A stretch of DNA of 21,234 nucleotides from a virus: positions 1 through 21,234 of IMG/VR virus record IMGVR_UViG_3300006902_000002. One strand, given 5' to 3'. Every line of letters begins with the position of its first letter. Positions within the stretch are counted from its first letter, which is position 1. The notes under the pieces were generated by a model that saw nothing but the letters and a program-made list of their open reading frames with translations, was not told the DNA's origin and made no database searches. Position numbers and translations under genes: made by a program. Shown in pieces: positions 5,000-21,234 of the stretch.

Positions 5000-5347
5000 A
5001 TGAGTGGTGAATTAGATATAGAACAAATAACAGAGACACTTGGTAACTCTAGATATTTTTATGGACTTAGACGTACTAGTGAAGGTGAATTGTTTATTTC
5101 AAAAGTAGATTTACTAGAATTAAAAGATGGTGTACAAGTTAATAGACCTGGTGCAGTGTCAGATAATTTTAATGATTTTTCTAGAGGCGTAGATTTTTTT
5201 GATGGAAGAGATGGACAACATAGAAAAAATTATAAAAATTTAGTTTATGAACAATATAAATGGGATGGCAGAAATATTTTTTATTATGTTAATACTGACG
5301 GTGAATTAGTTTTAAGAATTAACGAACAATATACATACGAAGCATAA
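5000..5347 (+). CDS. Conserved small phage protein, RYFYGLRR family (shorter paralogue)
   Basis: 115 residues, starting six bases after the fibre stop. No strong Shine-Dalgarno is visible (only GAG at about 4986-4988), so translation is probably coupled to the gene before it. The core begins RYFYGLRRTSEGELFISKVD, continues with DGVQVNRPG and FFDGRDGQH, and ends in FYYVNTDGELVLRIN, matching the protein at 1923 throughout. It stops about 38 residues earlier than that paralogue. It is charged and aromatic-rich, with no cysteines, signal peptide or membrane segment. Function unknown. The repeated placement next to fibre genes suggests a subunit or assembly partner for the neighbouring fibre. Confidence 0.75.
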   Translation: MSGELDIEQITETLGNSRYFYGLRRTSEGELFISKVDLLELKDGVQVNRPGAVSDNFNDFSRGVDFFDGRDGQHRKNYKNLVYEQYKWDGRNIFYYVNTDGELVLRINEQYTYEA

Positions 5348-5382: not shown

Positions 5383-8300
5383 ATGGCAGATTTCAAAATA
5401 GATAGGATACGATTTAGATGGAGAGGTGACTGGGTAGCAGGTACTTCTTACATTAAAGATGATATCGTTAGATATGGTGCAAAAATATTTGTCTCTATCG
5501 AAATGCATACAGCAGATGCTAACTTTTATAATGATTTAGATAATATAGTTCCAAGATGGTCACAAATGATGGATGGTCAAAGTTGGACTGGTAATTGGAA
5601 AACAAGTAATTTTTATAAAGTAGGTGAAGTAGCAAAAGTTGGAGCGGCAGTTTATAAATGTATAGAAGGTCACTTATCAAATGCAAGTGAAGCCAATGGA
5701 TTATTAGGTGATGAAAGTAAATGGGTTTACTTTGCAAGAGGTGAAAAATGGACATCTACATGGCAACCTAATACACTTTACAACGTTGGTGAAACAATTG
5801 TTTATGGTGGATCAGTTTGGAAATGTATAACATCGCATACTTCTTCAACTACAGCCGCAGGTATAGAATATCATCAAGCCAATTGGGTTCAATATCATAG
5901 ATCAGATTTTTATAGAGGTTATTGGGCACCAAGTGTAAGATATTATCCAGATGATATAGTAAGAAATGGTGGAGTAATTTACAGAGCTGTAACAGGACAT
6001 ACAAGTGCCGCAGTAGATTATTGGAACGATTTAGATAGTACAGATTATACAACAAATTCATCAAGTGGTTCTGGTGCAGTTATAAATGTTTTCAGAGTTG
6101 GCGCAACTTATTATGTAAAATTTACAAATGCAGGAGTAAACTTTGCGGCGGCAGAAACTATTTCTATAGTAGGTAGTAAAATTGGTGGAGCCGATGGTAC
6201 AAATGATTTATCAATCACTATTAATACAGTAAACAGTGGAGCAATAGCAACGACATCTGCAAATGGTACTGCTGTTTCAGATAGTGCAGGTTTAGAAGCC
6301 GATCAAGCAAAATGGGAAATAGTTCTTGATGGTATTGAATATGAAGATGATTGGGCATACGGAAAAAAATATAATAAAGGTGCTCTTGTATCTTGGAGTC
6401 CGGGAATTTGGCAAGTAACTACTAGTCACTGGTCAATAACGGAACACATGAATGAAGCTAATTTTTCATTATGGGTTCCAGGTGCAGAATACGAAGGAAC
6501 TTATTCTACTACACAATATTATCAAAAAGGTGACGTTGTACATTATGGTGGTTATAGTTATGTTGCTTTAGTAAGCAATACAAATATTATTCCAGGAGTT
6601 ACAGATAGTACAAATACTTGGGAATTAATTCAAACAGGTTATAATTTTAGAAGCGAATGGAATAGTTCAACTGCATATAAAACAGGAGATGTAGTTAGAG
6701 CAGGTGGTAACTTATTCATAGCAGTACAAGATAGCACTGGATCAGATCCTGATACAGTTTTTGTTTATGATCCTGGTAGTGATGCTCCTGATCCTTGGCA
6801 ATTATTAGTAACTGGTAAAGCATTTAAAGGTTCTTGGAAAGAAAGTGATTCTAACGGAGCAATTACTTACTTTGTAGGTGATGTAGTTACAGAAGCAGGA
6901 ACAGTATACGCTTGTATTAAAACACATGAGTCATCATCATCTGATTCTAAACCATCTTTAGATGAAGAAAGTGAAAATGTCGGTCCTTATTGGGTAATGA
7001 TAGCCAAAGGTAATGAACCTGGCGTTTTAGTACTTGAACAAATAGGTGACGTAAAAAGTTTTGATACAGAAAAAACAAGAATAGGTTTAGGAACAGTAGG
7101 ACAATTATTTAAAGGCAATGCAACTGGTGATTATCCAATATGGGGTGATCATGATGTAATAAAAAATGTATTTTTTGTTTCACCATATGGAACAGACACT
7201 CCTACTAGTGGTAAAAGTGTTGCAGGACCTTTTAAAACAATCAAATATGCTTGTGATTTTGTAGCGGCAGATTTAGCCAATCGAACACCATGTACTATAG
7301 CAATTAAAACTGGTGTATATGAAGAAATATTACCTATTACGGTCCCAAGAGATACACACATTTGGGGAGATTTTACAAGACGTGGTGTGAACGTTAGACC
7401 TAAAGCAGGTTATACAACAACAGATATGTGGCGTGTAAACAATGCCTGTGGTATTGCAAACGTAACAATGCAAGGAAAAACAGGTGGATTAACTGCCGCA
7501 AATGAATATGGAACAAAAAGAACAACAGGTGGAGCATATGTAACTTTAGATCCAGGTAGTGGACCTGCAGATACAAGTGTTCATATTTTAACAAAATCAC
7601 CTTACATTAAAAACTGTTCAATATTTGGAACAGGATGTACTGGATTAAAAGTAGACGGAGACTTACACAATGCTGGTCTCAGATCTTTTGTTGCTAATGA
7701 TACTACACACTTTATTGAAAATGGAATTGGTGCTCATGTTAATGGAGATGCTAGAGTAGAATTTGTTTCAGTATTTGCCTATTACGCCCACATAGGATAT
7801 TTGGCAACAGGCGGTGGAAAATTTAGAGCAACAAATGGAAATTCATCTTATGGTGATTTTGGTTGTGTTGCAGAAGGACAATTAGCGGCAGAAACTCCAA
7901 CAACTGGAAAAATTAATAACCAATCACAAGAAGCACAGGTAGATGCAGTTTATAATGATGAAAATGAAATATTTGCTTTTGCATATGATCACGCAGGACA
8001 AGATTATTCATCAGCAACAATTAATATTTTTGGTTCAGGAGAAGGAGCCGCGGCAACATTAGGTTACGATCAAATTAGAAATGGTGGAGTAGGTAAAGTA
8101 AGAATTAAAGGATTAGGTGATTCTTCTGTAGCTGGTGGTTCAAATTATACTAGTGAAATAGCACCTTCACAAGGTGGTGATGCAACATCAATTAAATTAG
8201 CACAACAATACGAAGGTACGTCATTAGAAACTGTAGGACAAAGAATTTATATATGGGAAGGTACAGGTAGAGGTCAGTATGGATATGTTCATACTTACGA

Positions 8301-11300
8301 TCCAAGTACAAAAGTTGCAACTATTAAAAGAGAATTTGATGATACAGATGGTTGGCAACACGTGATGGGTGGTTTCCCTATTGAAACTTTACTTAATGCA
8401 TCTACAAAATATTCTATAGAACCTAGAATTACATTTACAGATGGACCTTATAATAAATCTACTCCTTCTTTTGGAACTACAGGAGAAATGTTAGTATCTG
8501 CATCAGGAAGAGTTGGAGCATCTGATGTTACAGTATTACTTGGTAATGGTAAAGGAAATAGAACAACAGATGGTACAAATTGGACTGCTGTTAGTGGAGT
8601 TCCTTTAGCTGACTGGATCGGAATGACTAGAACAGCAAATTATTTTATAGCAGTAGCACAAGATGGAACAACTGCTAGATCCGCCGACGGTGCAACATGG
8701 ACTAATATTACAACAAGTCAATATAGCACAACAGGAGGAACATATACACCATCTACAGGAGAATTAGTATTAGAAATTGGAGCACATGAAGTAGGTCAGA
8801 CTTATAGTACAACAAGTGCAACATATACACCAGCAACAGGTGTAATGGAATTAGGTATAGAAAAACATACTCCTGGAGCACAATTTACTCCATCAGCCGC
8901 AACATACACTCCGGCAACAGGAGTATTAGAATTAACTATAGGATCACATAGTTTAGTAGCAGGTAATAAAGTTAAAATTGCTCCAAATAGTTTAACATTT
9001 ACTTGCGCCTTAGACAGTCACGCTACTGAAAAAACATATCCAAGAGCAACTGGAAGTGCCGCACCAGGCGGAGTAGATTATTTCTACGAAAAAGCAATAA
9101 CTCTTACGTCAGTAGGTGCAACAACAATTACAATGAACGTTGGTGATACTAGTATATCAGGCAATAACTCAACACACACATTTGTAAGTGCTACTTCTAA
9201 TTCTGTAACAGAACAAGTTATTGGAGCACACAATTTACATATTGGTAATGAAGTTAAGATTGCACCAACAAGTTTATATTTTACTTGTTCTTTTGATGAT
9301 CATACTGCTCAAACAGCCTATCCAAGAGCAACTGGATCTGCCGCACCAGGTGGTTATGATTATTATTATTATAGCCCAGTAGAAATTACAGCCACAACAG
9401 CATCAACAATTACAATGAATGTTGGTAAAGGAAATATTAAAAATTATACTGTAACAGACGCGGCTTATACACCAGCAACAGGAGTAGTAATATTAACTAT
9501 TGGTGAACATAATTTAGTAGCTGGTAATCATATTGACATTGCTCCATTAAGTTTAACATTTACTTGTGCCCAAGATAGTAATGCAACAGAACATAGCTAT
9601 CCAAGAGCAACAGGTTCAGCCGCTCCAGGTGGTTATGATTATTTTTATAATAAACAAATAGAAATTATTTCAGCAGGTGCAACAACAATTACTGTAAATG
9701 TTGGAATATCAAGTAATACAACAGCACATACATTTGTAAGTGCTCTTGCTGACGGTGTATCAAATTCAAATACACATACATTTGTAACCGCTCTTGCTGA
9801 CAATGTAACATTGGCAGGTCAATTTATTACTATTGCTCCAAACAGTTTAGGTTTTACTTGTTCTTTTGATAATAATGTATCAACTTCAACTTATCCAAGA
9901 GCAACAGGATCAGCGGCGCCAGGTGGAATGGATTATTTTTACGATACACCAATTGAAATTCAAAGCAGAACAGCAACAACAATTACAATGAATGTTGGAA
10001 AAGGAAATATTAAAAGTTACACTCCAACAGCCGCAGTATATACACCTGCATCAGGAGTAATGGTATTAACTATTGGAGCACATAGTTTAATAGCTGGTAA
10101 TTATGTTGATATTGCTACAGACAGTTTAACATTTACTTGCGATCAAGATAGTCATGGTAGTAATCATACATATCCAAGAGCGACTGGAAGTGCCGCACCT
10201 GGTGGTTATGATTTTTATTACGAAAAACCAATAAAAGTTGAGTCAGTAGGTGCAACAACAATTACTCTAAATGTTGGTATATCAAGTAATACAACAGATC
10301 ACTTATTTGTAAGTGCGACTGCTGATTGTGTAACAAATTCAAATGCACACACATATGTAAGTGCTACTGCGAATAATGTATCTTATTATTCTGTTCCTGT
10401 TGATGTAATGTCAGGTATTGCATATCGTAATGGAACTGTAATAATTGCATCAGAAACAGGAATGGTTTATAAATCAACTGATGACGGTTCTAGTTTCTCA
10501 GCTGATCAATTAGAAGTTTATGATGGTTCTACATCAATATTCACATATATTGCCGCTGGAAATGGATTATGGATAGCAGGTAATGGAACTGGAAAAACTT
10601 ATGAAAGTCAAGATGAAGGAGTAACTTGGTCATTAGGTTCTAACATTGGAGACAAATTAATGGATATTAACGGTGTTCTTAAATCTGTTCACAGATATGA
10701 TGTAACATCATTAATATTTGGTGGTGGTAAATTTGTAGCAACAGTAATAGACGCTCCAGGAGATGAAAGTACAGTTATTAGTAAATTTATGATATCAAAT
10801 GCTACAGGACAAGTTGGAGCTTCTGAACAAACAGCTACAAGATGGACAGAAAGTGAAACACCTCCACACGCAGGACCTTACATTGGAGTTGCATATACTG
10901 AAGGTACATATGTTGCAATATCGGCCGGTGGAGATCTTGCTTACAGTTATGACGCTTGGTCTTGGAAAATATTAGATTCTGCATTAACAGGAACGTTTTC
11001 AAGTATAGGTAGTGGTAAAGCTGGCGGTGGACATTTTGTTCCTTTACAAACTGGTAGTACCGGTACAACATATTTGTTAAGAAAAGGTTCAAAACCTTTA
11101 GCAAGAGCAATTACAAGTTCTCAAGTAATTACAAAATTACAAATTTTAGATCCAGGTAGTGGATATTCAACTGCACCAGCAGTTACAATAACTGACAATA
11201 AAGCTACAACTAATGCAAGTCTTGAAGCAAGAATATTTGATGGAGTATTAGGTCAACCAGAATTTTCAAATAGAGGTTCAGGATTTATGAATGTATCTGC

Positions 11301-12204
11301 AACATTAACAGGAGATGGTTTTGCAGATGAATATCAAATTGGTCCTTATCTTCAAGTAAAAGATATGACCGGAAAACCAGGACCAGGTGCAATTTTATAT
11401 ATAAATGGACTTGAAGATCAAGTTTATAGAATAACTCAGGTTAATAATGTAACAGGAAGTTCTCCTAACATTGCCGCTCAGTTTAGAATAACACCTAGAC
11501 TAAATGCAAATGAATCTCCTGATCATGAAACAACAATAGAAATAAGAGAAAGATATAGTCAAGTTAGAATAACTGGTCATGATTTCTTAGATATTGGAAC
11601 AGGTAATAAATCTACAACTAATTATCCAGGTTTATACACTAGTGGTTATACACCAGGTTATGAACGTAAACAACAAAATGAAACTGTATCAAATGGAGGA
11701 GGTAGAGTATTTTATACTTCTACTGACCAAGATGGAAATTATAGAGTTGGAGAATTATTTGAAGTAGAACAATCTACAGGAATAGTAACATTAAACGCAG
11801 ATTTATTTGACTTATCAGGTTTAACAGAAATAACTTTAGGTGCAGGTGGAGTTGGTGGTACTGATGTTAAAATTAATGAATTTAGTACAGATCCAACGTT
11901 GAAGAAAAATTCAAATAATGTGATACCTACACAAAAAGCAATTGCTACATTCATTGGCTCTAGAGTTTCTGGAGGAGGTGCAAATCTTATTACTAATGAA
12001 GTTAGAGCTGGACAAATAAAATTTGCTAATGATCAAATATTTAATGAAGCATTTCCGGCGGCTGGACAAGTTGTATTTGCCGCTACAGTAAATATTTCAA
12101 ATGTTTCTGGGCCTATGTTAGCACAATCATACTTTTTTGGCTCTAATGTTAGAGATAGCTGGGATGAAGGTGGAGCAGAACGGGACACATTGTATGGAAA
12201 TTAA
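5383..12204 (+). CDS. Giant modular tail-fibre protein with CBM-like repeats, beta-helix, Asp-box propeller and YTP array
   Basis: 2273 residues. The start (MADFKIDRIRFRW) matches the paralogue at 12253 (MAEFKLGRIRFVW). Order: eight CBM5/12-like repeats (residues about 8-543), the fourth carrying an inserted module (nt ~6052-6283). Next is a pectin-lyase-like beta-helix region (residues about 587-835: FFVSPYGTD, PFKTIKYA, IKTGVYEEILPI) ending in the conserved NGNSSYGDFGCVAEG. After SIEPR comes an Asp-box propeller-like region: SADGATW at residue 1100, STDDGSSF at 1698, SQDEGVTW at 1742. The YTP array (residues about 1113-1667) interrupts it. The C-terminus shares LDPGSGYSTAPAVTI, DGVLGQP, RYSQVRITGHDFLDIGTG and TDQDGNYRVGELF with the paralogue. 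No catalytic set is evident, so glycan binding is more likely than cleavage. No signal peptide or membrane helix. Expected to be a virion fibre or baseplate-linked protein. Confidence 0.88.
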   Translation: MADFKIDRIRFRWRGDWVAGTSYIKDDIVRYGAKIFVSIEMHTADANFYNDLDNIVPRWSQMMDGQSWTGNWKTSNFYKVGEVAKVGAAVYKCIEGHLSNASEANGLLGDESKWVYFARGEKWTSTWQPNTLYNVGETIVYGGSVWKCITSHTSSTTAAGIEYHQANWVQYHRSDFYRGYWAPSVRYYPDDIVRNGGVIYRAVTGHTSAAVDYWNDLDSTDYTTNSSSGSGAVINVFRVGATYYVKFTNAGVNFAAAETISIVGSKIGGADGTNDLSITINTVNSGAIATTSANGTAVSDSAGLEADQAKWEIVLDGIEYEDDWAYGKKYNKGALVSWSPGIWQVTTSHWSITEHMNEANFSLWVPGAEYEGTYSTTQYYQKGDVVHYGGYSYVALVSNTNIIPGVTDSTNTWELIQTGYNFRSEWNSSTAYKTGDVVRAGGNLFIAVQDSTGSDPDTVFVYDPGSDAPDPWQLLVTGKAFKGSWKESDSNGAITYFVGDVVTEAGTVYACIKTHESSSSDSKPSLDEESENVGPYWVMIAKGNEPGVLVLEQIGDVKSFDTEKTRIGLGTVGQLFKGNATGDYPIWGDHDVIKNVFFVSPYGTDTPTSGKSVAGPFKTIKYACDFVAADLANRTPCTIAIKTGVYEEILPITVPRDTHIWGDFTRRGVNVRPKAGYTTTDMWRVNNACGIANVTMQGKTGGLTAANEYGTKRTTGGAYVTLDPGSGPADTSVHILTKSPYIKNCSIFGTGCTGLKVDGDLHNAGLRSFVANDTTHFIENGIGAHVNGDARVEFVSVFAYYAHIGYLATGGGKFRATNGNSSYGDFGCVAEGQLAAETPTTGKINNQSQEAQVDAVYNDENEIFAFAYDHAGQDYSSATINIFGSGEGAAATLGYDQIRNGGVGKVRIKGLGDSSVAGGSNYTSEIAPSQGGDATSIKLAQQYEGTSLETVGQRIYIWEGTGRGQYGYVHTYDPSTKVATIKREFDDTDGWQHVMGGFPIETLLNASTKYSIEPRITFTDGPYNKSTPSFGTTGEMLVSASGRVGASDVTVLLGNGKGNRTTDGTNWTAVSGVPLADWIGMTRTANYFIAVAQDGTTARSADGATWTNITTSQYSTTGGTYTPSTGELVLEIGAHEVGQTYSTTSATYTPATGVMELGIEKHTPGAQFTPSAATYTPATGVLELTIGSHSLVAGNKVKIAPNSLTFTCALDSHATEKTYPRATGSAAPGGVDYFYEKAITLTSVGATTITMNVGDTSISGNNSTHTFVSATSNSVTEQVIGAHNLHIGNEVKIAPTSLYFTCSFDDHTAQTAYPRATGSAAPGGYDYYYYSPVEITATTASTITMNVGKGNIKNYTVTDAAYTPATGVVILTIGEHNLVAGNHIDIAPLSLTFTCAQDSNATEHSYPRATGSAAPGGYDYFYNKQIEIISAGATTITVNVGISSNTTAHTFVSALADGVSNSNTHTFVTALADNVTLAGQFITIAPNSLGFTCSFDNNVSTSTYPRATGSAAPGGMDYFYDTPIEIQSRTATTITMNVGKGNIKSYTPTAAVYTPASGVMVLTIGAHSLIAGNYVDIATDSLTFTCDQDSHGSNHTYPRATGSAAPGGYDFYYEKPIKVESVGATTITLNVGISSNTTDHLFVSATADCVTNSNAHTYVSATANNVSYYSVPVDVMSGIAYRNGTVIIASETGMVYKSTDDGSSFSADQLEVYDGSTSIFTYIAAGNGLWIAGNGTGKTYESQDEGVTWSLGSNIGDKLMDINGVLKSVHRYDVTSLIFGGGKFVATVIDAPGDESTVISKFMISNATGQVGASEQTATRWTESETPPHAGPYIGVAYTEGTYVAISAGGDLAYSYDAWSWKILDSALTGTFSSIGSGKAGGGHFVPLQTGSTGTTYLLRKGSKPLARAITSSQVITKLQILDPGSGYSTAPAVTITDNKATTNASLEARIFDGVLGQPEFSNRGSGFMNVSATLTGDGFADEYQIGPYLQVKDMTGKPGPGAILYINGLEDQVYRITQVNNVTGSSPNIAAQFRITPRLNANESPDHETTIEIRERYSQVRITGHDFLDIGTGNKSTTNYPGLYTSGYTPGYERKQQNETVSNGGGRVFYTSTDQDGNYRVGELFEVEQSTGIVTLNADLFDLSGLTEITLGAGGVGGTDVKINEFSTDPTLKKNSNNVIPTQKAIATFIGSRVSGGGANLITNEVRAGQIKFANDQIFNEAFPAAGQVVFAATVNISNVSGPMLAQSYFFGSNVRDSWDEGGAERDTLYGN
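5404..7011 (+). repeat. Eight CBM5/12-like repeats (first giant fibre)
   Basis: Eight units of roughly 50-60 residues with the pattern W......Y..GD.V.YGG..Y.C...HTS....W....G. Examples are NFYKVGEVAKVGAAVYKCIE and TLYNVGETIVYGGSVWKCIT. The pattern resembles carbohydrate-binding modules of the CBM5/12 (chitin-binding type 3) fold. Unit 4 contains an insertion of about 75 residues between its HTS and its closing KWEIV. Confidence 0.75.
8719..10383 (+). repeat. YTP repeat array inside the Asp-box region
   Basis: Two truncated starts (about 8719-8883) followed by five near-complete units: 8884-9210, 9211-9441, 9442-9816, 9817-10014 and 10015-10383. Each carries a [SF]TC segment, YPRATGSAAPGG and TTIT[MVL]NVG. 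Some units end in GKGNIK and others in NTTAHTFVSA, alternating after the first unit. Confidence 0.88.
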
Positions 12205-12252: not shown

Positions 12253-15200
12253 ATGGCTGAGTTTAAACTAGGTAGAATTAGATTTGTTTGGAAAGGTTCT
12301 TGGGTAACTTCAACATCATATTACGTCGATGACGTTATAAGATATGGTGGAAGAACCTATAATTGCGTATCAAATCACATTGCTAACGCAGATTTCCAAG
12401 TAGATTTAACTGCTGAAAATTGGCAATTAATGTCCGATGGTCAAGAATGGAAAAGTGATTGGTCATTAAATACAGTTTACAAACCAAATGATGTTGTAAA
12501 ATATGGTGGTTACATTTATATTTGTAACACAGGACACACATCTGCCGCAACGGTAGAACTTGGCTTAGAAAATCATCAATCTTATTGGGATTTATTTGTA
12601 GAAGGATTTGATTGGAAATCTGATTGGACAATTTCTACTAGATATAAAGTAAATGATTTAGTAAAATATGGTGGATCAGTTTATCTTTGTATAGAAGAAC
12701 ACACATCAGATACAACAACAGCAGTTGGCTTAGAAGGAAAACAAAGCAAATGGGAAATTTTTGGAAAAGGTTTTGTTTGGTTAGGCGACTGGGCAATTAA
12801 TACTAGATACAGAGTAAATGATACAGTTAGATACGGTGGACAAATTTATATTAACATAACTGGACATACTTCAGCGGCAACTATCACAGATGGTTTAGAA
12901 GCCAATCAAGCACAATGGCAAGTCTTACACAAAGGAATACAATATTTAGGTGCTCACGCGGCAACAACAAGATATAAAGTTAATGATGTAGTAAAATATG
13001 GTGCAAATATTTGGATTGCCACAACGGCACATACATCAACAACTTCTTTAGCGGCTGACGAAGGTAATTGGTCAGTTTTAATTCCAGGTTTAGAATTTGA
13101 AGATACTTGGGATTCTTCAACACAATATCAACCAGGTGACTTTATTACTTACGGTGGATATAGTTATGTTTCAAATACAAATAACGTTAATAAAAATCCA
13201 CCTCTTAATTCAAGTGATTGGACATTATTTGTAACAGGATTTAATTTAAGAGGCGACTATAATGCCGTTACTGCATACAAACAAGGTGACGTTGTTAGAG
13301 TTGGAGGTTTTACATATCTCGCAATTGCAGACACAACAGGTAATAAACCACCAAGTGTTTTACACTGGGATAAACTTAATGAAGGTTTATATTGGAAAGG
13401 TAATTGGGCAAATGCAACTGAATTCGACAGAGGTGATATAGTAAGAGGAACTACTAACACTAATACAAGTTATATTTGCGTAACAGGACACACATCAAAT
13501 AATGTTGGACCAAGTACAATTAATCAACCAGACTATCCACCAGGAGCAGGTGTCGATACTAGTGTTTGGTCATTATTAGCAACAGGAACAGAAAACGCTG
13601 TACTATCAGTAAAAGGTGATCTTTTAATTTATGGTCAATCAGGACCAGCTAGATTGCCAATTGGTAAAGCAGGACAAACTTTAATTGTAAACTCAGCAGG
13701 TGATCTTCCTGAATGGGGATACTTTGGAGCTGTAGATCAAGTTTATTATGTTTCAGAAACAGGAACAGATGTTCCAGCACCTGATTCAGGACCAACACTT
13801 GACAAACCTTGGAAAACTTTAAGATATGCTTTATGGCAAATTGAACAAGGACCAAGAAATCCTCAAGGAACTTACATGATGGAAAGAAACAAAGCATTTA
13901 TTCAAGCAGAAATTATAGCTTGGATTAACGCTCAAATTGCTGGAAACATTTCACCTTTCACATCAGGTTATACATATGACGCGGCAAAATGTACAAGAGA
14001 CTCTGGATTAATGATTGATGCAGTTCTATGGGATTTAAGACATGGTGGAAATGAAAAATCAAGATATGCAACACTTAGAATTTCAACTCAAACAGAATTT
14101 GTAAATAATTCTGCTGAATTACAAGCCTATCTTACTAGATTAGTTTATATTACACAACAAGTTACAGCCAACAATGCAGGTTATTCTGCAGGACAAGGTA
14201 CAATAAATCAAGTTGTTGATAACAATTATACTGCGGAGCCGGCTGTTAATGGAGAAATTGCAAGTTATATACAAATTGCAATAGATTGTCTTGCGGCAGG
14301 TAATACATCTGGAGTACCTATAGAAGAAGTAGCACAAACTTCATTATTTGTTAAAACAGGAACATACGAAGAAGTGTTACCTCTTTCAGTAAGAAAAGGA
14401 ACAGCAATCGTAGGAGATGAATTAAGATCAACAGTTATTAAACCAGCAGGACAACAATCTTCAGTAAGCGACACAGCATTTACATTAGAAGGTATTGGTA
14501 GAATGCAGGCAATTTTGTCTGACATAGTTCAGAACAATGCTGTAACACCAACACCGGTAGGAGGTGTTACATTTTTAACAACACCTGCACCAGATTTAGG
14601 TTTTGTTAATGGAACTTACACTAACGTTGCAGTAACAGGTGGAACTGGAACAGGATGTACAGTAGATTGTACTGTTTTATCATTTGCAATTACGGCTTTG
14701 TCTATAAATTCACCAGGACAGAATTATGTAGTTTCTGATGCATTAACAATTCCAGCGGCAACAATTGGAGCAGATGGAGTTTCAACTGTAACAGGAGTTA
14801 CAACAGGAAATAATTTAACTCAAAATACAGATCTTCCTGTAGGTTCAGCGGCGGCAGGTACAGCGGCGGCGGCAATTGGACAAGATATTATAGATCATAT
14901 AACTTACAAAGTTAATGCAACTGGATCTGATCCAGCAGTAACTGGTGTTAATAGTGCAGATTCAACTGCAGGCTTTACAGATGCAAGATTAAGACTATTA
15001 GCAAATAAAGAATTTATTGCATTAGAAGCCGCGGAGTATGTACAAAGAGCAAATCCAACTCATAGTAATTTTAAAGAAAAATGTTTGGCTGATATTAGAA
15101 TTTATGTTCAAACAATTATGGACGACTTAGAATATACCGGCAATTATAAATCATTGAAAGCGGCAGATGCCTATATTAATTCTAGACTTGCAAAAGGTTC

Positions 15201-18200
15201 TAGTTCAAATGATATGTTCTATGTTAGAAATGCTTCAGGAATAAGAAATGTAACAGTAGAAGGTTTAATAGGAACATTAGGTACTACTCAATTCTCTACA
15301 ACAGCGGCAACATACGCACCAGCAACAGGTGTAATGGAATTAACTATTGGAGCACATAGTATTGCTGTTGGTGAAAAAGTAATGATTGCCGCAAATAGTT
15401 TAATCTTTACTTGCGATCAAGATACTCACGCTACTCAACATAGCTATCCAAGAGCAACTGATCCTTATTACAATAAAGAAATTTTAGTTACAGGTGCGAC
15501 AGCGACTACAATTACAATGAATGTTGGAATATCAAGTAATACAACAGGACATACATTTGTAATGGCTACTGAAGATAATGTAACATTAGCTACTGCAAAT
15601 GAATATGGAACAAAAAGACCAACAGGTGGAGCATATGTATCATTAGATCCAGGTTGGGGACCAGCACATGAAGAAGTATGGATTAAGTCTAAATCACCTT
15701 ATATCCAAAATGTAACAACTTGGGGAGAAGGTTGTGTTGGAGTAAAAGTAGACGGTGCATTACACGATGGTGGTTTTGATTCTATCGTTGGAAATGACTT
15801 TACACAATTATGCGATAATGGTATTGGTGCTTGGATTACAAATTTAGGTAGAGTAGAACTTGTATCAGTATTTTCTTATTATGCACACATAGGTTACCTT
15901 TGTGAAAATGGTGGAAAACTTCGTTCTACAAACGGAAATTCATCTTATGGAGATTTTGGTTGTGTTGCAGAAGGAACAGATGCAAGTGAAACTCCAATAA
16001 CAGCAACAGTAGATAATAGAAGTACAGATGCAATTATTGACAATGTTATGACAGATGCTAATCAAATATTAGCATTTGAATATGATAATGCAGGTAGACA
16101 ATATAGTAATGCAACATTTACTATATCTGGACCTGGTTATGGAATTGCTGGAACAACTCCAACTTATAATACTGGTGGTGTTTACAAAATTAGATTAATA
16201 GAAACTAATCAAGAAGTAAGTGATCAAGGTGGATCAACTTACATGACTGCACTTAATACTGGACAAACAGGTGACACTACATCAATTACTATAGCTAACG
16301 CAGATAGTAATGCCTCAGGGGCTTATCCTGGAATGGCAATATGGATTGTAGAAGGAAAAGGTGTAGGACAATATGCATATATTAATACTTACAATGCAAC
16401 AAGTAAAGTTGCAACTGTTAAAAAATATTCAAATGCCGCAGACGGTTGGGAAAGACTTGGCGGTTTAGCGGTAGAGGCAACATTAGACAATACAACAAAA
16501 TATAGTATTGAACCGAGAGTAGTTATTGCGGCTCCTCAAGATGATGGAAGTACAGCAGTTAGACAAGCAATTGCAAGAGCAGTTGTTACAACAGAAAAAA
16601 TTTCCAAAGTAAAAATTATAGATTGCGGAGCAAGTTATACTTCAGCACCTGCTGTAACATTTACTGATCCTAACAATACTACAGATGCTCCAGTACAATC
16701 ATACATAGATGATGGTGTATTAGGACAACCAACTTTCTCTGCAAGAGGAACTGACTTTGAAACTGCAAGTGCAACAGTATCTGATGCAGGAAGCGAAAAA
16801 GTTATTACAGGTGTTTCACAAGCAAATCCAATGGAAGTTACAGCCGTAGCTCATAATTTTGTTGATGGTCAAAAAGTTGTATTTTCTGATATAGTTGGTA
16901 TGACAGAATTAAATTCTGGTGTATATTTTTATATTAAATCTACAAGTGTAGATACATTTGCAGTTTACATTGACTTTGATTTAAATAATGGATTAGATTC
17001 AACTAATTTCACAGCATACGTTTCAGGTGGTAAAGCAACAAGCTTCGGTGGATTTAGAGATGAATATCAATTTGGAAGATATCTTCAAGTAGAAGGATTA
17101 ACAAAAGTACCTCAAGCAGGTTCTAATATAGAATTTGATGGCATTGGTTCTACAACATATCCTTATGCATATGATGTTCTAACTTCAAATAAAGAATTTT
17201 TAAAAGATGAAGTTGTTTCTTGGTTTGATAATACTGGTTATCCAGGTGTTCATTCTCAAGCAGAATTAGATAAGTGCGAAAGAGACGTAGGATATGAAAT
17301 AGATGCGTTAGCACATGATTTAAAATTTGGCGGTAATACAGAAACAGTTAGGGTAGCAAAATTTTATTGGATTGGAACTAATACACAACTTGGCGTAGGT
17401 GAACAAGCCTATGCAGTTGCAGTTAATAATAAATTAAAAGAAATAATTAATGGTTATATTCTTACTAATACTGGTTGGTCAACTGAACAAACTCCAGTTG
17501 TTACTACTCAAACTATAACTGCAAATAATGGAGAAATTGGTACAACAGATAAAATTACAACATTAATTACAAACTTTAATGATGTTATAGAAAATGGTTT
17601 AACATCATTACCAGCTACAATAGGATTAAACAATCCTTACTACAAAATAGTAAGTGTTAAAAGTCAATTAGGATCACAAGCTCCTTATTCAGCACTATTA
17701 CAAATTAGTCCACAATTAAGTGTAGCACAATCACAAGAGCATGGTTCTCAAGTGACAATGAAATTTAGATACAGTCAAGTTAGATTGACTGGTCATGACT
17801 TTTTGGATGTTGGTACTGGTGACACAGCTAACACCAATTATCCTGGAACACCTTTAAATGATCCAGATTCAGCTAATGAAGCCGTTGGAAGAGGTGGAGG
17901 TAGAGTATTCTTCTCCGCAACTGATCAAGACGGTAACTTTAAAGTTGGAGAATTATTCTCAGTACAACAAGCAACAGGTATTGCTACGTTGAATGCTGAT
18001 GCATTTAATATTTCAGGATTACAAGAGCTTCAGTTAGGAGATCAAACATTAGGAGGCACTAGTGCCGCTATTAATCAATTCTCCACTGACGGGACAATGG
18101 CGGCTAATAGCGATTCCATTGTACCAACACAACGGGCAATAAGAACTTATATCGCTTCACAAATTGGTGGTGGTGCAAGTTCTATTAACGTTAACTTGAT

Positions 18201-18339
18201 AACTGCAGGATTAATTCAGATATCAGGCAATTCAATAAATACAACAACAGGAGTAAGCATCAATATTGCAAGTCCAGTTAATTTCCTTAAAGGGGTTAGC
18301 GGAGGACCATTGGCGATGAACTTCTTAATACATAGTTAA
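12253..18339 (+). CDS. Giant modular tail-fibre protein, paralogue of the 5383 gene
   Basis: 2028 residues. Eight CBM5/12-like repeats (about 8-445) lead into a beta-helix region (VYYVSETGTD, PWKTLRYA, VKTGTYEEVLPLSV). This region is opened by a helical module (about 544-676, with KCTRDSGLMIDAVLWDL), a GTYTNVAVTGGTGTG module (about 783-856) and a second helical stretch (about 881-980, KCLADIRIYVQTIMDDL). One YTP repeat (1012-1113) precedes the conserved TANEYGTKR...NGNSSYGDFGCVAEG domain (to about 1243). The C-terminal backbone matches the 5383 protein (DGVLGQPTFSARG, DEYQFGRYLQVEG, TGHDFLDVGTGD, TDQDGNFKVGELF, VPTQRAIRTYI). It is split by a VITGVSQANPMEVTAV module (about 1517-1597) and a third helical module (about 1635-1796). 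It lacks the Asp-box region. No signal peptide or membrane segment. A virion fibre or baseplate appendage is the best reading; the ligand is unknown. Confidence 0.88.
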   Translation: MAEFKLGRIRFVWKGSWVTSTSYYVDDVIRYGGRTYNCVSNHIANADFQVDLTAENWQLMSDGQEWKSDWSLNTVYKPNDVVKYGGYIYICNTGHTSAATVELGLENHQSYWDLFVEGFDWKSDWTISTRYKVNDLVKYGGSVYLCIEEHTSDTTTAVGLEGKQSKWEIFGKGFVWLGDWAINTRYRVNDTVRYGGQIYINITGHTSAATITDGLEANQAQWQVLHKGIQYLGAHAATTRYKVNDVVKYGANIWIATTAHTSTTSLAADEGNWSVLIPGLEFEDTWDSSTQYQPGDFITYGGYSYVSNTNNVNKNPPLNSSDWTLFVTGFNLRGDYNAVTAYKQGDVVRVGGFTYLAIADTTGNKPPSVLHWDKLNEGLYWKGNWANATEFDRGDIVRGTTNTNTSYICVTGHTSNNVGPSTINQPDYPPGAGVDTSVWSLLATGTENAVLSVKGDLLIYGQSGPARLPIGKAGQTLIVNSAGDLPEWGYFGAVDQVYYVSETGTDVPAPDSGPTLDKPWKTLRYALWQIEQGPRNPQGTYMMERNKAFIQAEIIAWINAQIAGNISPFTSGYTYDAAKCTRDSGLMIDAVLWDLRHGGNEKSRYATLRISTQTEFVNNSAELQAYLTRLVYITQQVTANNAGYSAGQGTINQVVDNNYTAEPAVNGEIASYIQIAIDCLAAGNTSGVPIEEVAQTSLFVKTGTYEEVLPLSVRKGTAIVGDELRSTVIKPAGQQSSVSDTAFTLEGIGRMQAILSDIVQNNAVTPTPVGGVTFLTTPAPDLGFVNGTYTNVAVTGGTGTGCTVDCTVLSFAITALSINSPGQNYVVSDALTIPAATIGADGVSTVTGVTTGNNLTQNTDLPVGSAAAGTAAAAIGQDIIDHITYKVNATGSDPAVTGVNSADSTAGFTDARLRLLANKEFIALEAAEYVQRANPTHSNFKEKCLADIRIYVQTIMDDLEYTGNYKSLKAADAYINSRLAKGSSSNDMFYVRNASGIRNVTVEGLIGTLGTTQFSTTAATYAPATGVMELTIGAHSIAVGEKVMIAANSLIFTCDQDTHATQHSYPRATDPYYNKEILVTGATATTITMNVGISSNTTGHTFVMATEDNVTLATANEYGTKRPTGGAYVSLDPGWGPAHEEVWIKSKSPYIQNVTTWGEGCVGVKVDGALHDGGFDSIVGNDFTQLCDNGIGAWITNLGRVELVSVFSYYAHIGYLCENGGKLRSTNGNSSYGDFGCVAEGTDASETPITATVDNRSTDAIIDNVMTDANQILAFEYDNAGRQYSNATFTISGPGYGIAGTTPTYNTGGVYKIRLIETNQEVSDQGGSTYMTALNTGQTGDTTSITIANADSNASGAYPGMAIWIVEGKGVGQYAYINTYNATSKVATVKKYSNAADGWERLGGLAVEATLDNTTKYSIEPRVVIAAPQDDGSTAVRQAIARAVVTTEKISKVKIIDCGASYTSAPAVTFTDPNNTTDAPVQSYIDDGVLGQPTFSARGTDFETASATVSDAGSEKVITGVSQANPMEVTAVAHNFVDGQKVVFSDIVGMTELNSGVYFYIKSTSVDTFAVYIDFDLNNGLDSTNFTAYVSGGKATSFGGFRDEYQFGRYLQVEGLTKVPQAGSNIEFDGIGSTTYPYAYDVLTSNKEFLKDEVVSWFDNTGYPGVHSQAELDKCERDVGYEIDALAHDLKFGGNTETVRVAKFYWIGTNTQLGVGEQAYAVAVNNKLKEIINGYILTNTGWSTEQTPVVTTQTITANNGEIGTTDKITTLITNFNDVIENGLTSLPATIGLNNPYYKIVSVKSQLGSQAPYSALLQISPQLSVAQSQEHGSQVTMKFRYSQVRLTGHDFLDVGTGDTANTNYPGTPLNDPDSANEAVGRGGGRVFFSATDQDGNFKVGELFSVQQATGIATLNADAFNISGLQELQLGDQTLGGTSAAINQFSTDGTMAANSDSIVPTQRAIRTYIASQIGGGASSINVNLITAGLIQISGNSINTTTGVSINIASPVNFLKGVSGGPLAMNFLIHS
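12274..13587 (+). repeat. Eight CBM5/12-like repeats (second giant fibre)
   Basis: Eight units in register with those of the paralogue. Units 2-4 are the most alike (TVYKPNDVVKYGGYIYICNT, TRYKVNDLVKYGGSVYLCIE, TRYRVNDTVRYGGQIYINIT), pointing to later local duplication. None has the large insertion found in unit 4 of the paralogue. Confidence 0.75.
15286..15591 (+). repeat. Single YTP repeat inserted in a conserved domain
   Basis: About 102 codons from TTQFSTTAATYAPATG to ATEDNVTLA. It has the same core as the other YTP repeats but with the short loop YPRATDPYYNKE in place of YPRATGSAAPGG. It lies between VEGLIGTLG and TANEYGTKR. The paralogue has MQGKTGGL followed at once by TAANEYGTKR, so the insertion edges are clear. 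Confidence 0.85.
18234..18241 (+). promoter_or_regulatory. Possible internal late-promoter-like box (AATAAATA)
   Basis: A NATAAATA match inside the end of the giant fibre gene, 112 bases before the start at 18354. It could serve the small downstream gene, but in AT-rich coding DNA such a match may be chance. Confidence 0.2.
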
Positions 18340-18353
18340 AGGAGAGAAAACAC

Positions 18354-18674
18354 ATGGCTTCAGGAAGATTAGGAAAAGCGGATTTGGTTGCCACTACTGA
18401 TACTGTAGTATACACGTGTCCAGCGGATACATTTACCGTGGCCACCGTGTCTATCTGCAATAGAGGTAATCAAGTTATTACACTAAAAATGTCGGTGTCA
18501 GACTCAGGTACTCCAGATGCGTCAGAATATGTAGAATATGATACAGAAGTTCTGTCACACGGAGTATTAGAACGAACTGGTTTAGTAATGAATGCTGGAC
18601 AAAAGCTCGTTGTATGGTCTAACGCTGTAAATGTTAGTGCAGTAGTTATGGGTATTGAAACTGGTACTTCGTAA
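18354..18674 (+). CDS. Small beta-rich phage tail protein
   Basis: 106 residues. A strong ribosome binding site (AAAGGAG, 18338-18344) nine bases before the ATG overlaps the previous stop. The sequence runs ADLVATTDTVVYTCPADTFT, then VSICNRGNQVITLKMSVSDS, then EYVEYDTEVLSHGVLERTGL and AGQKLVVWSNAVNVSAVVMG. The plan YT.PA.T...V.VCNRG...YIEYDT.....VLERTG....G.K..V is familiar from small structural proteins near tail-fibre genes in T4-like and other phages. There is no signal peptide or membrane segment. It has two cysteines. It resembles the protein at 1592 in length and overall plan, so the pair may be distant paralogues. Likely a small beta-sandwich tail or fibre-tip component; role inferred. 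Confidence 0.72.
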   Translation: MASGRLGKADLVATTDTVVYTCPADTFTVATVSICNRGNQVITLKMSVSDSGTPDASEYVEYDTEVLSHGVLERTGLVMNAGQKLVVWSNAVNVSAVVMGIETGTS

Positions 18675-18737: not shown

Positions 18738-19070
18738 ATGGGAAGATATATATCAACAACTGGAACTGCTGGTGCTGTTACTAGAGAAGTCTCTACAACA
18801 TACGCCGCATTAGTTAATGATAGAATTCTTGCTGACAGTACAGGTGGAGCATTTACAATAACTCTACCGGCAAATGCTGGTTTGTTAATTAATGATACAA
18901 TTCAAATCATTGATGCAACATCTCAAACTGGCGTAAATGCAATAACTGTTGGAAGAAACGGATCATTAATTCAGGGAGTGGCAGAAGATTTAACTGTTGA
19001 CTTACCTGGAGCGATAATGACTATGGTTTATACTGGTGCAACATACGGTTGGATCTTAGGTGCTGTATAA
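18738..19070 (+). CDS. Small beta-rich tail/fibre protein
   Basis: 110 residues, starting nine bases after AAAGGA. The sequence shows a phage tail-type beta domain: DRILADSTGGAFTITLPANA, INDTIQIIDATSQTGVNAIT, then VGRNGSLIQGVAEDL and a closing VYTGATYGWILGAV. Segments of this type (a .F.ITLP strand, an .I.I.D strand, then .I.RNGS.I.G and a final Y....GW) are common as domains or whole proteins in phage appendages. There is no cysteine, signal peptide or membrane helix. The gene follows its own late-promoter-like box and is 51 bases from the first Cys-rich gene. It may cap or join a fibre, but the sequence shows only the fold class. Confidence is good for a structural role, low for a specific one. 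Confidence 0.72.
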   Translation: MGRYISTTGTAGAVTREVSTTYAALVNDRILADSTGGAFTITLPANAGLLINDTIQIIDATSQTGVNAITVGRNGSLIQGVAEDLTVDLPGAIMTMVYTGATYGWILGAV

Positions 19071-19121: not shown

Positions 19122-20111
19122 ATGAGTGCATTAAGCACAATGCTGACAACAAAAAAAGTAGGTTTTACCGAAGCCGAAGAACAGAATCTTGAGAAAGGAA
19201 GAATTTATACATATACTCAAGGGGCTAATTGGTCTAGACTTTGGTGCGGATTTTGTTTCCATCCTGAAGTAGCAGGAACAGTATATTTAGAATCATGGGG
19301 AGCTGGCGGTAGTGGCGGTAAAATGTGCTGTTGCGGTTTTGGCTTACCTGGTAACTCTGCGGCTTATGCCTATAGAAAATTTGATCTAGGAGAAAATGGA
19401 TTTATTTGCGGATGTACAGGTCAATCATGTGGTAATGCAGATACATTATGTCACAGAGGTTGTTCTGAACCAACGTTCATGAATATTTCTACTGGCTTAG
19501 GTGAATGTACTTGCGTTTGTACTCAAGGTGGTGCAGGCGGAGTTTCTTATTGTTCAACTAATACTTCATTTTATTGTTGTTTTGCGGCAAACGGTTTTTG
19601 TGCAACAAAAACTGATAACGATCACTGCGGATGGGTATGTAATATGTGCGATGGAAAACATATAGCTCAAGCATATTGCGGAGATACAGGTTATAATTGT
19701 CCAGGAAGAACTTCTTGTGTAGCGGCTTTTGGTTGTTACCCATTATGTATTTGTAATTTTACTCACTACGCACCTACACCTGCAGGTATGTTTAGTAAAG
19801 AAGGAATGTATGTCGCTTTTAATACAGAAAACAATAACGGATTTTCAGATTGGTCAGGTCAAGGTGCACACCAATTAGAAGCATCTTTAGGGGCTGGAAG
19901 ATGGCCTACAGGTGGTATACCTTGGTCAACTTGCTGGGGAGCAAGTAAAGGTTGTCACTGTCAAATAGGTGAACCTTGTATACCTCACGTTCCAGTTGGA
20001 ATGGGAGGACACGGATCAATGCCATGTCCACAAGTAAGAGATCACGCAAGTAGAGGAGGTCACGGTGGAGTACGAATTAAATTTATTCGTAACGACGAAC
20101 CGACTCAATAA
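19122..20111 (+). CDS. Glycine/cysteine-rich candidate adhesin, paralogue 1
   Basis: 329 residues with 31 cysteines by my count (about 9%). AGGAG at 19108-19112 supports the ATG. The N-terminus (LSTMLTTKK... EEQNLEKGRIYTYTQ) matches the next two genes. Then come WCGFCFHPEVAGTVYLESWG, a Gly-rich SWGAGGSGGKMCCCGFGLPG, and a long middle part with spaced Cys, CxC, CC and His (LCHRGC, CTCVC, CHCQIGEPC). The C-terminus PCPQVRDHASRGGHGGVRIK is conserved. There is no signal peptide or membrane helix. The cysteines could form disulfides after release from the cell or bind metal; neither is shown. T-even-type phages often encode a Gly-rich receptor-binding adhesin (gp38 class) just downstream of the long fibre. 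The same placement here makes a tip adhesin a reasonable but unproven guess. Confidence 0.7.
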   Translation: MSALSTMLTTKKVGFTEAEEQNLEKGRIYTYTQGANWSRLWCGFCFHPEVAGTVYLESWGAGGSGGKMCCCGFGLPGNSAAYAYRKFDLGENGFICGCTGQSCGNADTLCHRGCSEPTFMNISTGLGECTCVCTQGGAGGVSYCSTNTSFYCCFAANGFCATKTDNDHCGWVCNMCDGKHIAQAYCGDTGYNCPGRTSCVAAFGCYPLCICNFTHYAPTPAGMFSKEGMYVAFNTENNNGFSDWSGQGAHQLEASLGAGRWPTGGIPWSTCWGASKGCHCQIGEPCIPHVPVGMGGHGSMPCPQVRDHASRGGHGGVRIKFIRNDEPTQ

Positions 20112-20123
20112 AGAGAGATTATT

Positions 20124-21137
20124 ATGCCAGCATCATCATTAACAGCATTATTACAAACGAAGTATGATTACCCATTAGCTAATGAAACTAATTTAGAAAC
20201 GGGACAGCTTTTTACATTTTATCCTAGTAATCAATATAGCACTAATTTTTGGTGTCATATTTGTTGGAAACCACCAGCAAATGGTATAGCTACAATTGAA
20301 GTATGGGGTGCGGCTGGATCAGGTGCAGAAATGTGCTGTTGCGGTGGAGGAATTCCAGGCAATCCAGGCGGTTATTCTAGAAAAGTATTACCAGAATTTG
20401 GAGCATCTTGGGCCGATTGTTATATTTGTGCTCAGATAGGTTTATCTTGTAATAACACAGACGATTTATGTTACAGAGGAATGTCAGAACCAACTCAAGT
20501 TTGTTGGTTAGCTGGTGATTCCGATGGATGTATTTGTGCTCAAGGTGGTAGAGGTGGAACATCATTCTGCTCATCTAGTCCAGCAATGTATTGTTGTTAC
20601 CTAACAAATGACTGGTGTGGTACACAAGGCGGTGGAGCAGGTTGCGGTATAATTTGTAATTACAGAGACGATGGTGGTACAAATTATTCCGGTGCAGATT
20701 ATTGTGCATTTGCTTATGGTGGAGATGTAAACTGTTATGGCGGATTTAGTTGTATGTACTTTAAAAACTGTTATCCAAACTGTAACTGTAGACAAAATCC
20801 AGTAATTAGAATTCCACCAGGAATGATTTCAGAAAAAGGTGGACAAGTTCAATACGCAATGGATACAGATAATCAAAGATCTTATTGGTCAGGAATGGGC
20901 GGAATTTTTGGAGTAATGGAACCATTAAATATGGCAACAAGAAATCCAACTCAAGGAGCTCCTTATAATGCTTGTTGGACAGGTAATGACTCTTGCGGAT
21001 GTTATCAAGATCAAGGACAAATTAACTTCTTCCCTGGAGGAATTCCAGGACAAGGTCCTACACCTTGCGATGGTGTAAGAGATCACGCTTGGAGAGGCGG
21101 AAACGGAATAATGAGGATTAAATTTGTAGCTTCGTAA
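20124..21137 (+). CDS. Glycine/cysteine-rich candidate adhesin, paralogue 2
   Basis: 337 residues with 28 cysteines by my count. It starts 12 bases after the previous stop; only a weak GAGAG precedes the ATG, so coupling is likely. It aligns with the protein at 19122 over its whole length: ALLQTK...NETNLETGQLFTFYP, WCHICWKPPANG, VWGAAGSGAEMCCCGGGIPG, DDLCYRGMSEPTQV, CICAQGGRGGTSFCSS, MYCC, NCYPNCNC, PPGM.SEKG, and TPCDGVRDHAWRGGNG.MRIKF at the end. The cysteine pattern is kept (WCxxCW/F, MCCC, xCxC, CC) while the intervening loops differ. That is the pattern expected of a fixed scaffold with variable surface loops. No enzyme motif or targeting signal is seen. Probably an alternative or partner subunit of its neighbours at a fibre tip. 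Confidence 0.7.
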   Translation: MPASSLTALLQTKYDYPLANETNLETGQLFTFYPSNQYSTNFWCHICWKPPANGIATIEVWGAAGSGAEMCCCGGGIPGNPGGYSRKVLPEFGASWADCYICAQIGLSCNNTDDLCYRGMSEPTQVCWLAGDSDGCICAQGGRGGTSFCSSSPAMYCCYLTNDWCGTQGGGAGCGIICNYRDDGGTNYSGADYCAFAYGGDVNCYGGFSCMYFKNCYPNCNCRQNPVIRIPPGMISEKGGQVQYAMDTDNQRSYWSGMGGIFGVMEPLNMATRNPTQGAPYNACWTGNDSCGCYQDQGQINFFPGGIPGQGPTPCDGVRDHAWRGGNGIMRIKFVAS

Positions 21138-21144
21138 AAAGGAG
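21136..21144 (+). promoter_or_regulatory. Ribosome binding site of the truncated last gene
   Basis: AAAAAGGAG, the strongest Shine-Dalgarno in this family, overlaps the previous stop codon and lies 11 bases before the ATG at 21156. It supports that start for a gene visible for only 26 codons. Confidence 0.5.
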
Positions 21145-21155
21145 TAAATAGTATT

Positions 21156-21234
21156 ATGGCAACATTGAAAAAAATATTAGGTGAAAGAACAGCCGGAGGC
21201 GGTATAGAACAAAACATAGAAAAAGGTTATATCT
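21156..21234 (+). CDS. Third member of the Gly/Cys-rich family, N-terminal fragment (3' end outside window)
   Basis: Only 26 complete codons are in the window: MATLKKILGER then TAGGGIEQNIEKGYI. The segment IEQNIEKGYI lines up with EEQNLEKGRIYTY of the 19122 protein and NETNLETGQLFTF of the 20124 protein, at nearly the same distance from the start. With the matching intergenic arrangement and strong ribosome binding site, this makes a third tandem paralogue likely. No cysteine falls in the visible part, but none does in the equivalent part of the other two. The product cannot be described beyond this. Confidence 0.6.
   Translation, partial: MATLKKILGERTAGGGIEQNIEKGYI

Follow-up and report, generated by a model that had tools for sequence, protein, structure and literature searches.

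The 21,234-base viral DNA analyzed here (referred to below as the window) ends in three tandem genes, A, B and C, whose cysteine- and glycine-rich products very probably make up a receptor-binding fiber tip, as judged from a structural model of A and from the surrounding genes. On balance, we favor a tip in which A, B and C would be three different subunits in the combination A1B1C1, stapled by disulfides and carried on a long fiber. A wider proposal, to which we give a little less than an even chance, is that an obligate heterotrimeric, disulfide-stapled tip with one copy each of three paralogs arose on two or more independent occasions in T4-like viruses and would turn three different faces to the host. 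A three-part tip of paralogs has not previously been described in this protein family.

Gene content and cysteine conservation

All genes of the window lie on the + strand, beginning with large fiber genes, which are followed by two small fiber-associated genes, A, B and the start of C:

12253..18339, + strand, large fiber protein of 2028 amino acids; PHROG_9851 tail fiber protein, E 3.6e-190
18354..18674, + strand, fiber-associated protein of 106 amino acids (MASGRLG...); PHROG_11338 tail fiber protein; constant neighbor of the trio
18738..19070, + strand, fiber-associated protein of 110 amino acids (MGRYISTTGTAG...); matches tail-protein PHROGs; constant neighbor of the trio
19122..20111, + strand, gene A, open reading frame for a cysteine- and glycine-rich putative fiber-tip protein; 329 amino acids, 31 cysteines; PHROG_4205, E 1.1e-7
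20124..21137, + strand, gene B, open reading frame for a paralog of A; 337 amino acids, 28 cysteines; PHROG_4205, E 2.1e-10
21156..21234, + strand, start of gene C, third paralog, read from the sequence; 26 codons in the window, MATLKKILGERTAGGGIEQNIEKGYI; continued in relatives L002 and L003

The initial annotation had reported two full proteins with 31 and 28 cysteines and a third paralog at the window edge, and both observations were confirmed. The ATG of C at 21156 is preceded by an AAGGAG-type ribosome site and its frame stays open to the window end. Contig L002, which is 98-99% identical to the window and on which the cysteines were also counted, extends C to 147 amino acids, and complete C proteins in L003 (323 amino acids) and others have 320-325 amino acids and 31-33 cysteines. 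A and B are 40% identical when aligned and are thus paralogs.

Eight other proteins of the window contain 40 cysteines in 5756 residues (0.69%), and at that background the probability is ~5e-25 for 31 in 329 and ~3e-21 for 28 in 337. Since the background is so low, the excess in A and B is not due to chance, and the cysteine content is as unusual as had been claimed. Twenty-four cysteine columns are more than 80% conserved, with a mean entropy of 0.23 bits versus 2.04 for ordinary columns, and form a fixed skeleton beneath variable positions. The MCCC, CxC and CC patterns named in the initial annotation are kept throughout the family; WCxxC, also named there, occurs in both A and B, but among 99 proteins only its second cysteine is conserved (99%, versus 28% for the first). 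An extra insert enlarges one protein of the trio to 408-409 amino acids with 36-47 cysteines in some relatives from freshwater; the gene concerned is the second in L091 and L093 and the first in L085 and L087.

The 2028-amino-acid protein is likely the shaft of the fiber that carries the trio. Cyanophage fibers, including those of P-SSM2 and S-CAM1, both of which carry PHROG_4205, cover 33-44% of it. The order fiber, 106 amino acids, 110 amino acids, A, B, C and a gene of ~215 amino acids recurs in relatives of the window and in cyanophages S-CAM1 and S-CAM3, in all of which a PHROG_8954-type gene and a carbamoyltransferase follow the ~215-240-amino-acid gene. The location at the fiber cluster is conserved in the lineages examined.

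The ~215-amino-acid gene falls past the window end. Eleven of 12 examples match PHROG_9740, whose link to tail-fiber assembly (97.6% by profile comparison) comes through the Sf-FS3 member only, which itself also matches 'tail fiber assembly' (6e-9). The gene changes fast, with 42% identity between L003 and L008. It is probably the assembly chaperone of the trio, by analogy with gp25, which serves gp24 in phage Pam3.

Relatives, copy number and gene history

Both A (residues 2-322, profile positions 2-285 of 287) and B (profile positions 20-249) match PHROG_4205, a family of 'unknown function'. When named phages were searched with this profile, three copies were found in S-CAM1, S-CAM3, S-SSM7 and Sf-FS3 and two in P-SSM2, all annotated as hypothetical and located after a long fiber gene, as in the window. 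Thus the statement that no characterized homolog was known holds for function, as we found no characterization of the family in the databases and literature searched; it does not hold for homologs as such, since PHROG_4205 and its cultured cyanophage members exist. The passages searched in the main text of Sullivan 2010 report proteomics for none of these gene clusters. These members resemble the window proteins in their full-length profile match, their slot after a long fiber, their 24-36 cysteines and, in four phages, their three copies, and S-CAM1 and S-CAM3 also have the two ~106-110-amino-acid proteins in the slot. They differ in their low identity (direct alignments are short, 33-51%) and in forming a separate clade with its own triplication. 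When 50,697 phage records were searched by tblastn, A and B gave no match; with the divergent relative L036 as query, weak matches to S-CAM1 and P-SSM2 were obtained.

The initial annotation had counted at least three paralogs. Exactly three were found in all 28 longer viral records, each searched whole, although these are not fully independent, with an identity range that reaches down to ~40%; in two of them one gene has a match split in two pieces and in one there is a frame break. Four of the records (G007, G008, G020 and G027) have a tandem pair plus a third gene, which lies toward the major capsid gene at a distance of ~23 kb; in a quick tree this lone copy groups with the C line. Scans of viral contigs in four overlapping runs gave 38, 74, 80 and 80 loci; three genes were present in 189 of 252 loci, many of the others being cut short or derived from the split-copy lineages. 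The order A-B-C was recovered by profile in 45 of 67 distinct trios. The remaining trios are divergent sets, some of them from freshwater, with mostly ambiguous calls and often a B-like gene in last position.

A careful tree placed the window lineage in one clade (100/99) and the trios of Sf-FS3 and S-SSM7 in another (100/100). Genes 1, 2 and 3 of Sf-FS3 and S-SSM7 pair by position, as do those of S-CAM1 and S-CAM3, and the two P-SSM2 genes pair with each other (100/100). Since the trios of the window and of Sf-FS3/S-SSM7 form separate clades, triplication occurred independently at least two times, perhaps three. The quick tree, in which some deep branches are weak, separates A, B and C of the window lineage into three lines.

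The trio is found in a set of large aquatic T4-like viruses. A T4-type gp23 is present in 21 of the 28 longer records, and the gp23 encoded in the record of L003, which is closely related to the window, shares 66-69% identity with that of jumbo T4-like phages. Family members were not found in the capsid-related jumbo phages PA5oct, Vibrio 2.275.O and Erwinia SNUABM_19, nor in Pelagibacter phage Mosig, which has a related fiber; in Phosso, another jumbo relative by capsid, there was one short weak match inside a 3182-codon frame. The photosystem gene D1 was absent from the 13 records checked, which are fragments, so that these give no positive sign of cyanophage identity. AG-345-P14 (Marine virus, L112 5117-5962) was considered as a member with one copy and rejected: the protein in the slot has 26 cysteines in 282 amino acids, but no match to PHROG_4205 or the family profile. 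The sole match among GTDB species genomes was L280 (PAOW01000006.1), a contig of 15 kb that belongs to a MAG of marine Euryarchaeota (SAT205) and contains B, C, the chaperone-like gene and a carbamoyltransferase. This is a binned virus contig, and its placement is perhaps a hint of the host, perhaps mis-binning.

Predicted fold of the A protein

AlphaFold2 modeled A from a 99-row alignment with a pLDDT of 83.8 and a pTM of 0.83. The best solved structure found for this model by Foldseek was the Pam3 fiber (7ypx_A, E 8.8e-6, probability 1.00, TM 0.42/0.53), followed in the PDB by the Bxb1 tail tip and then the glycine-rich domains of ALK/LTK. Because the TM values are moderate, A is predicted to share a fold class with Pam3 gp24 rather than a close likeness. 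Among viral models, the S-CAM3 and P-SSM2 homologs ranked best, ahead of numerous glycine-rich proteins from phages and giant viruses. The match to the Pam3 tip, together with the family link of the next gene, through one cyanophage member, to tail-fiber assembly chaperones, supports well the initial reading of a glycine-rich adhesin. The comparison with gp38-type adhesins made at the same time holds for the type of fold only: S16 gp38 (6F45), to which gp24 was likened in the Pam3 paper (PMC9608196), is also a glycine-rich tip of a long fiber, but it was absent from the best 50 PDB matches listed for the A model, below which weaker matches may lie, Pam3 gp24 being the nearest solved structure, and here the tip genes are a cysteine-rich set of three.

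Pam3 gp24 and gp25 (PDB 7YPX, 7YFW) have in common with the trio the TNF-like plus glycine-rich fold, as predicted for A, and probably a dedicated chaperone, the two Pam3 proteins forming a 3:3 complex (PMC9608196). Pam3 differs in using one gene and a homotrimer; its tip domain has 39% glycine, compared with ~16% in a protein of this family, and cysteine goes unmentioned in the text (PMC9608196). In A, a short segment (MxxLxxxLxTK...NLEKGxIYxY) precedes the TNF-like/glycine-rich domain; the model has a helix only at residues 4-9, with pLDDT below 50 at residues 12-17, and lacks the long N-terminal helix that forms a trimer bundle in gp24.

A PDB search with the sequence profile returned a chance match only, and Pfam gave no match for A or B at E <= 1, with Gly_rich_2 (PF21722) included. 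The family does share with Gly_rich_2 a WGAGGSG start and an RGGxGxVRIKF end, and one cyanophage member, SfFS3_97, passes its cut-off (27.1 versus 24.3 bits).

One three-part tip or separate adhesins

In the arrangement that we favor, the short N-terminal segment of each chain would dock on the fiber, and the TNF-like beta-sandwich would run out into a glycine-rich tip, as in trimeric Pam3 gp24. Three paralogous chains, one of each, would replace the three copies of a single Pam3 chain, and the gene after the trio would supply the assembly chaperone. Once the virion has left the reducing cytoplasm, the ~24 conserved cysteines would staple the loops by disulfides, which may take over some of the role of the polyglycine lattice. 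Because a trimeric fiber offers three places at its tip, A1B1C1 predicts a fixed number of three, while a repertoire of independent adhesins should differ in size between viruses. That three position-specific genes were arrived at repeatedly and independently is therefore what leads us to favor the heterotrimer over spare host-range adhesins. A prediction of a fused A-B-C chain was poor (pLDDT 54.3, pTM 0.52, 13-row alignment) and thus gives the heterotrimer no structural support. Nor is three universal, as the two copies of P-SSM2 would suit A2B or two homotrimers.

The strongest alternative, which we nevertheless consider unlikely, is that each paralog forms its own homotrimeric tip, on different fibers and for different receptors, thereby widening the host range. 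Such tips would fit with the complete domain in every chain, with the separate location of C in some genomes and with the several large fiber genes in the window that could bear them. They fit less well with a gene number of exactly three, which is seen in the 28 records as well as four cultured cyanophages and arose independently two or more times, and with the fact that most of the loci seen have just one ~215-amino-acid chaperone-like gene after the trio. Divergence is also against them: relative to L003, A is 75% and B 73% identical, and the neighboring fiber 75%, so that A and B change no faster than the fiber and hypervariation of the trio is not seen. The initial annotation had suggested that the paralogs widen host range; with copy number fixed at three, an orthologous line for each copy in most of the lineage and no faster divergence, we have replaced this reading by the heterotrimer hypothesis, and its adhesin part is supported.

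A heterotrimer made from three genes has been described in mycobacteriophage Mysterious, in which the consecutively numbered products gp35/36/37 form a fiber-like complex (PMC13252515, preprint). The Mysterious complex is part of a siphophage baseplate with another arrangement of folds, and the report does not use the word 'paralogue' or describe a glycine- or cysteine-rich tip (PMC13252515). Pam3 gp24, the closest solved tip of this fold, is a homotrimer, and a tip of three paralogs would let a virus change one adhesin face at a time. If it exists, it would account for the strict limit of three genes across widespread aquatic viruses, and it offers a testable function for PHROG_4205.

The simplest role for the ~24 conserved cysteines would be in disulfides, which they probably form following release of the virion, and the conserved columns are compatible with disulfides in the mature particle. 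Agrobacterium phage Milano provides a precedent: its tail is disulfide-locked and its virion extensively disulfide-bonded despite cytoplasmic assembly (PMC10811340). Other proteins are involved there, with 2.1% cysteine in the structural proteins (0.9% in the T4 proteome; PMC10811340), compared with 8-10% here, which, if the disulfides are real, would be an extreme of virion disulfide chemistry and a model for tough binding scaffolds. It is improbable that the cysteines instead bind metal (Zn, Fe-S or Cu) in a metal-clustered adhesin. The dense CCC, CxC and CxxxCxC spacing, the odd number of cysteines in 50 of 99 proteins and the reducing cytoplasm would suit metal, but the alignments contain neither a recurring short metal-finger unit nor an invariant histidine, the number of cysteines conserved above 80% is even, and the Milano disulfides are documented. 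Finally, a non-structural or soluble role for A, B and C, for example as a secreted decoy or an enzyme whose genes lie in the fiber cluster by accident, is very improbable, as the predicted fold of A is that of a fiber tip with fiber and tail-tip proteins as best matches, the fiber neighborhood is constant with an assembly-type gene adjoining, and Pfam gives no enzyme match.

Other features of the fiber cluster

Seven stretches of the 2028-amino-acid fiber protein (12253-18339) match the Pfam carbohydrate-binding module 5/12 (CBM_5_12), and, oddly, residues 1533-1596 pass the threshold of the FCCH domain of ubiquitin E1. A C-terminal module, GRVFY/FSxTDQDGNFxVGELFxVxQxTGI, is common to the large fiber proteins 1-1584, 5383-12204 and 12253-18339, the first of which has a shorter version, TDQSGDFRLGELFHVNQKTGV. 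Repeats of ~85 amino acids with a single conserved cysteine (LTFTCALDSHATxxTYPRATGSAAPGG) recur in the proteins encoded at 2402-4993 and 5383-12204 and occur once in 12253-18339. The small proteins encoded at 1923-2381 and 5000-5347 are paralogs of each other and belong to PHROG_8997 (unknown function); each of their genes lies upstream of a large fiber-like gene. Downstream of the trio, both in L003 (11755-15470) and in relatives, two PHROG_8954 proteins (unknown function) flank a NodU-type carbamoyltransferase; a carbamoyltransferase is found at the same place in cyanophages, tying sugar-modification genes to the fiber cluster.
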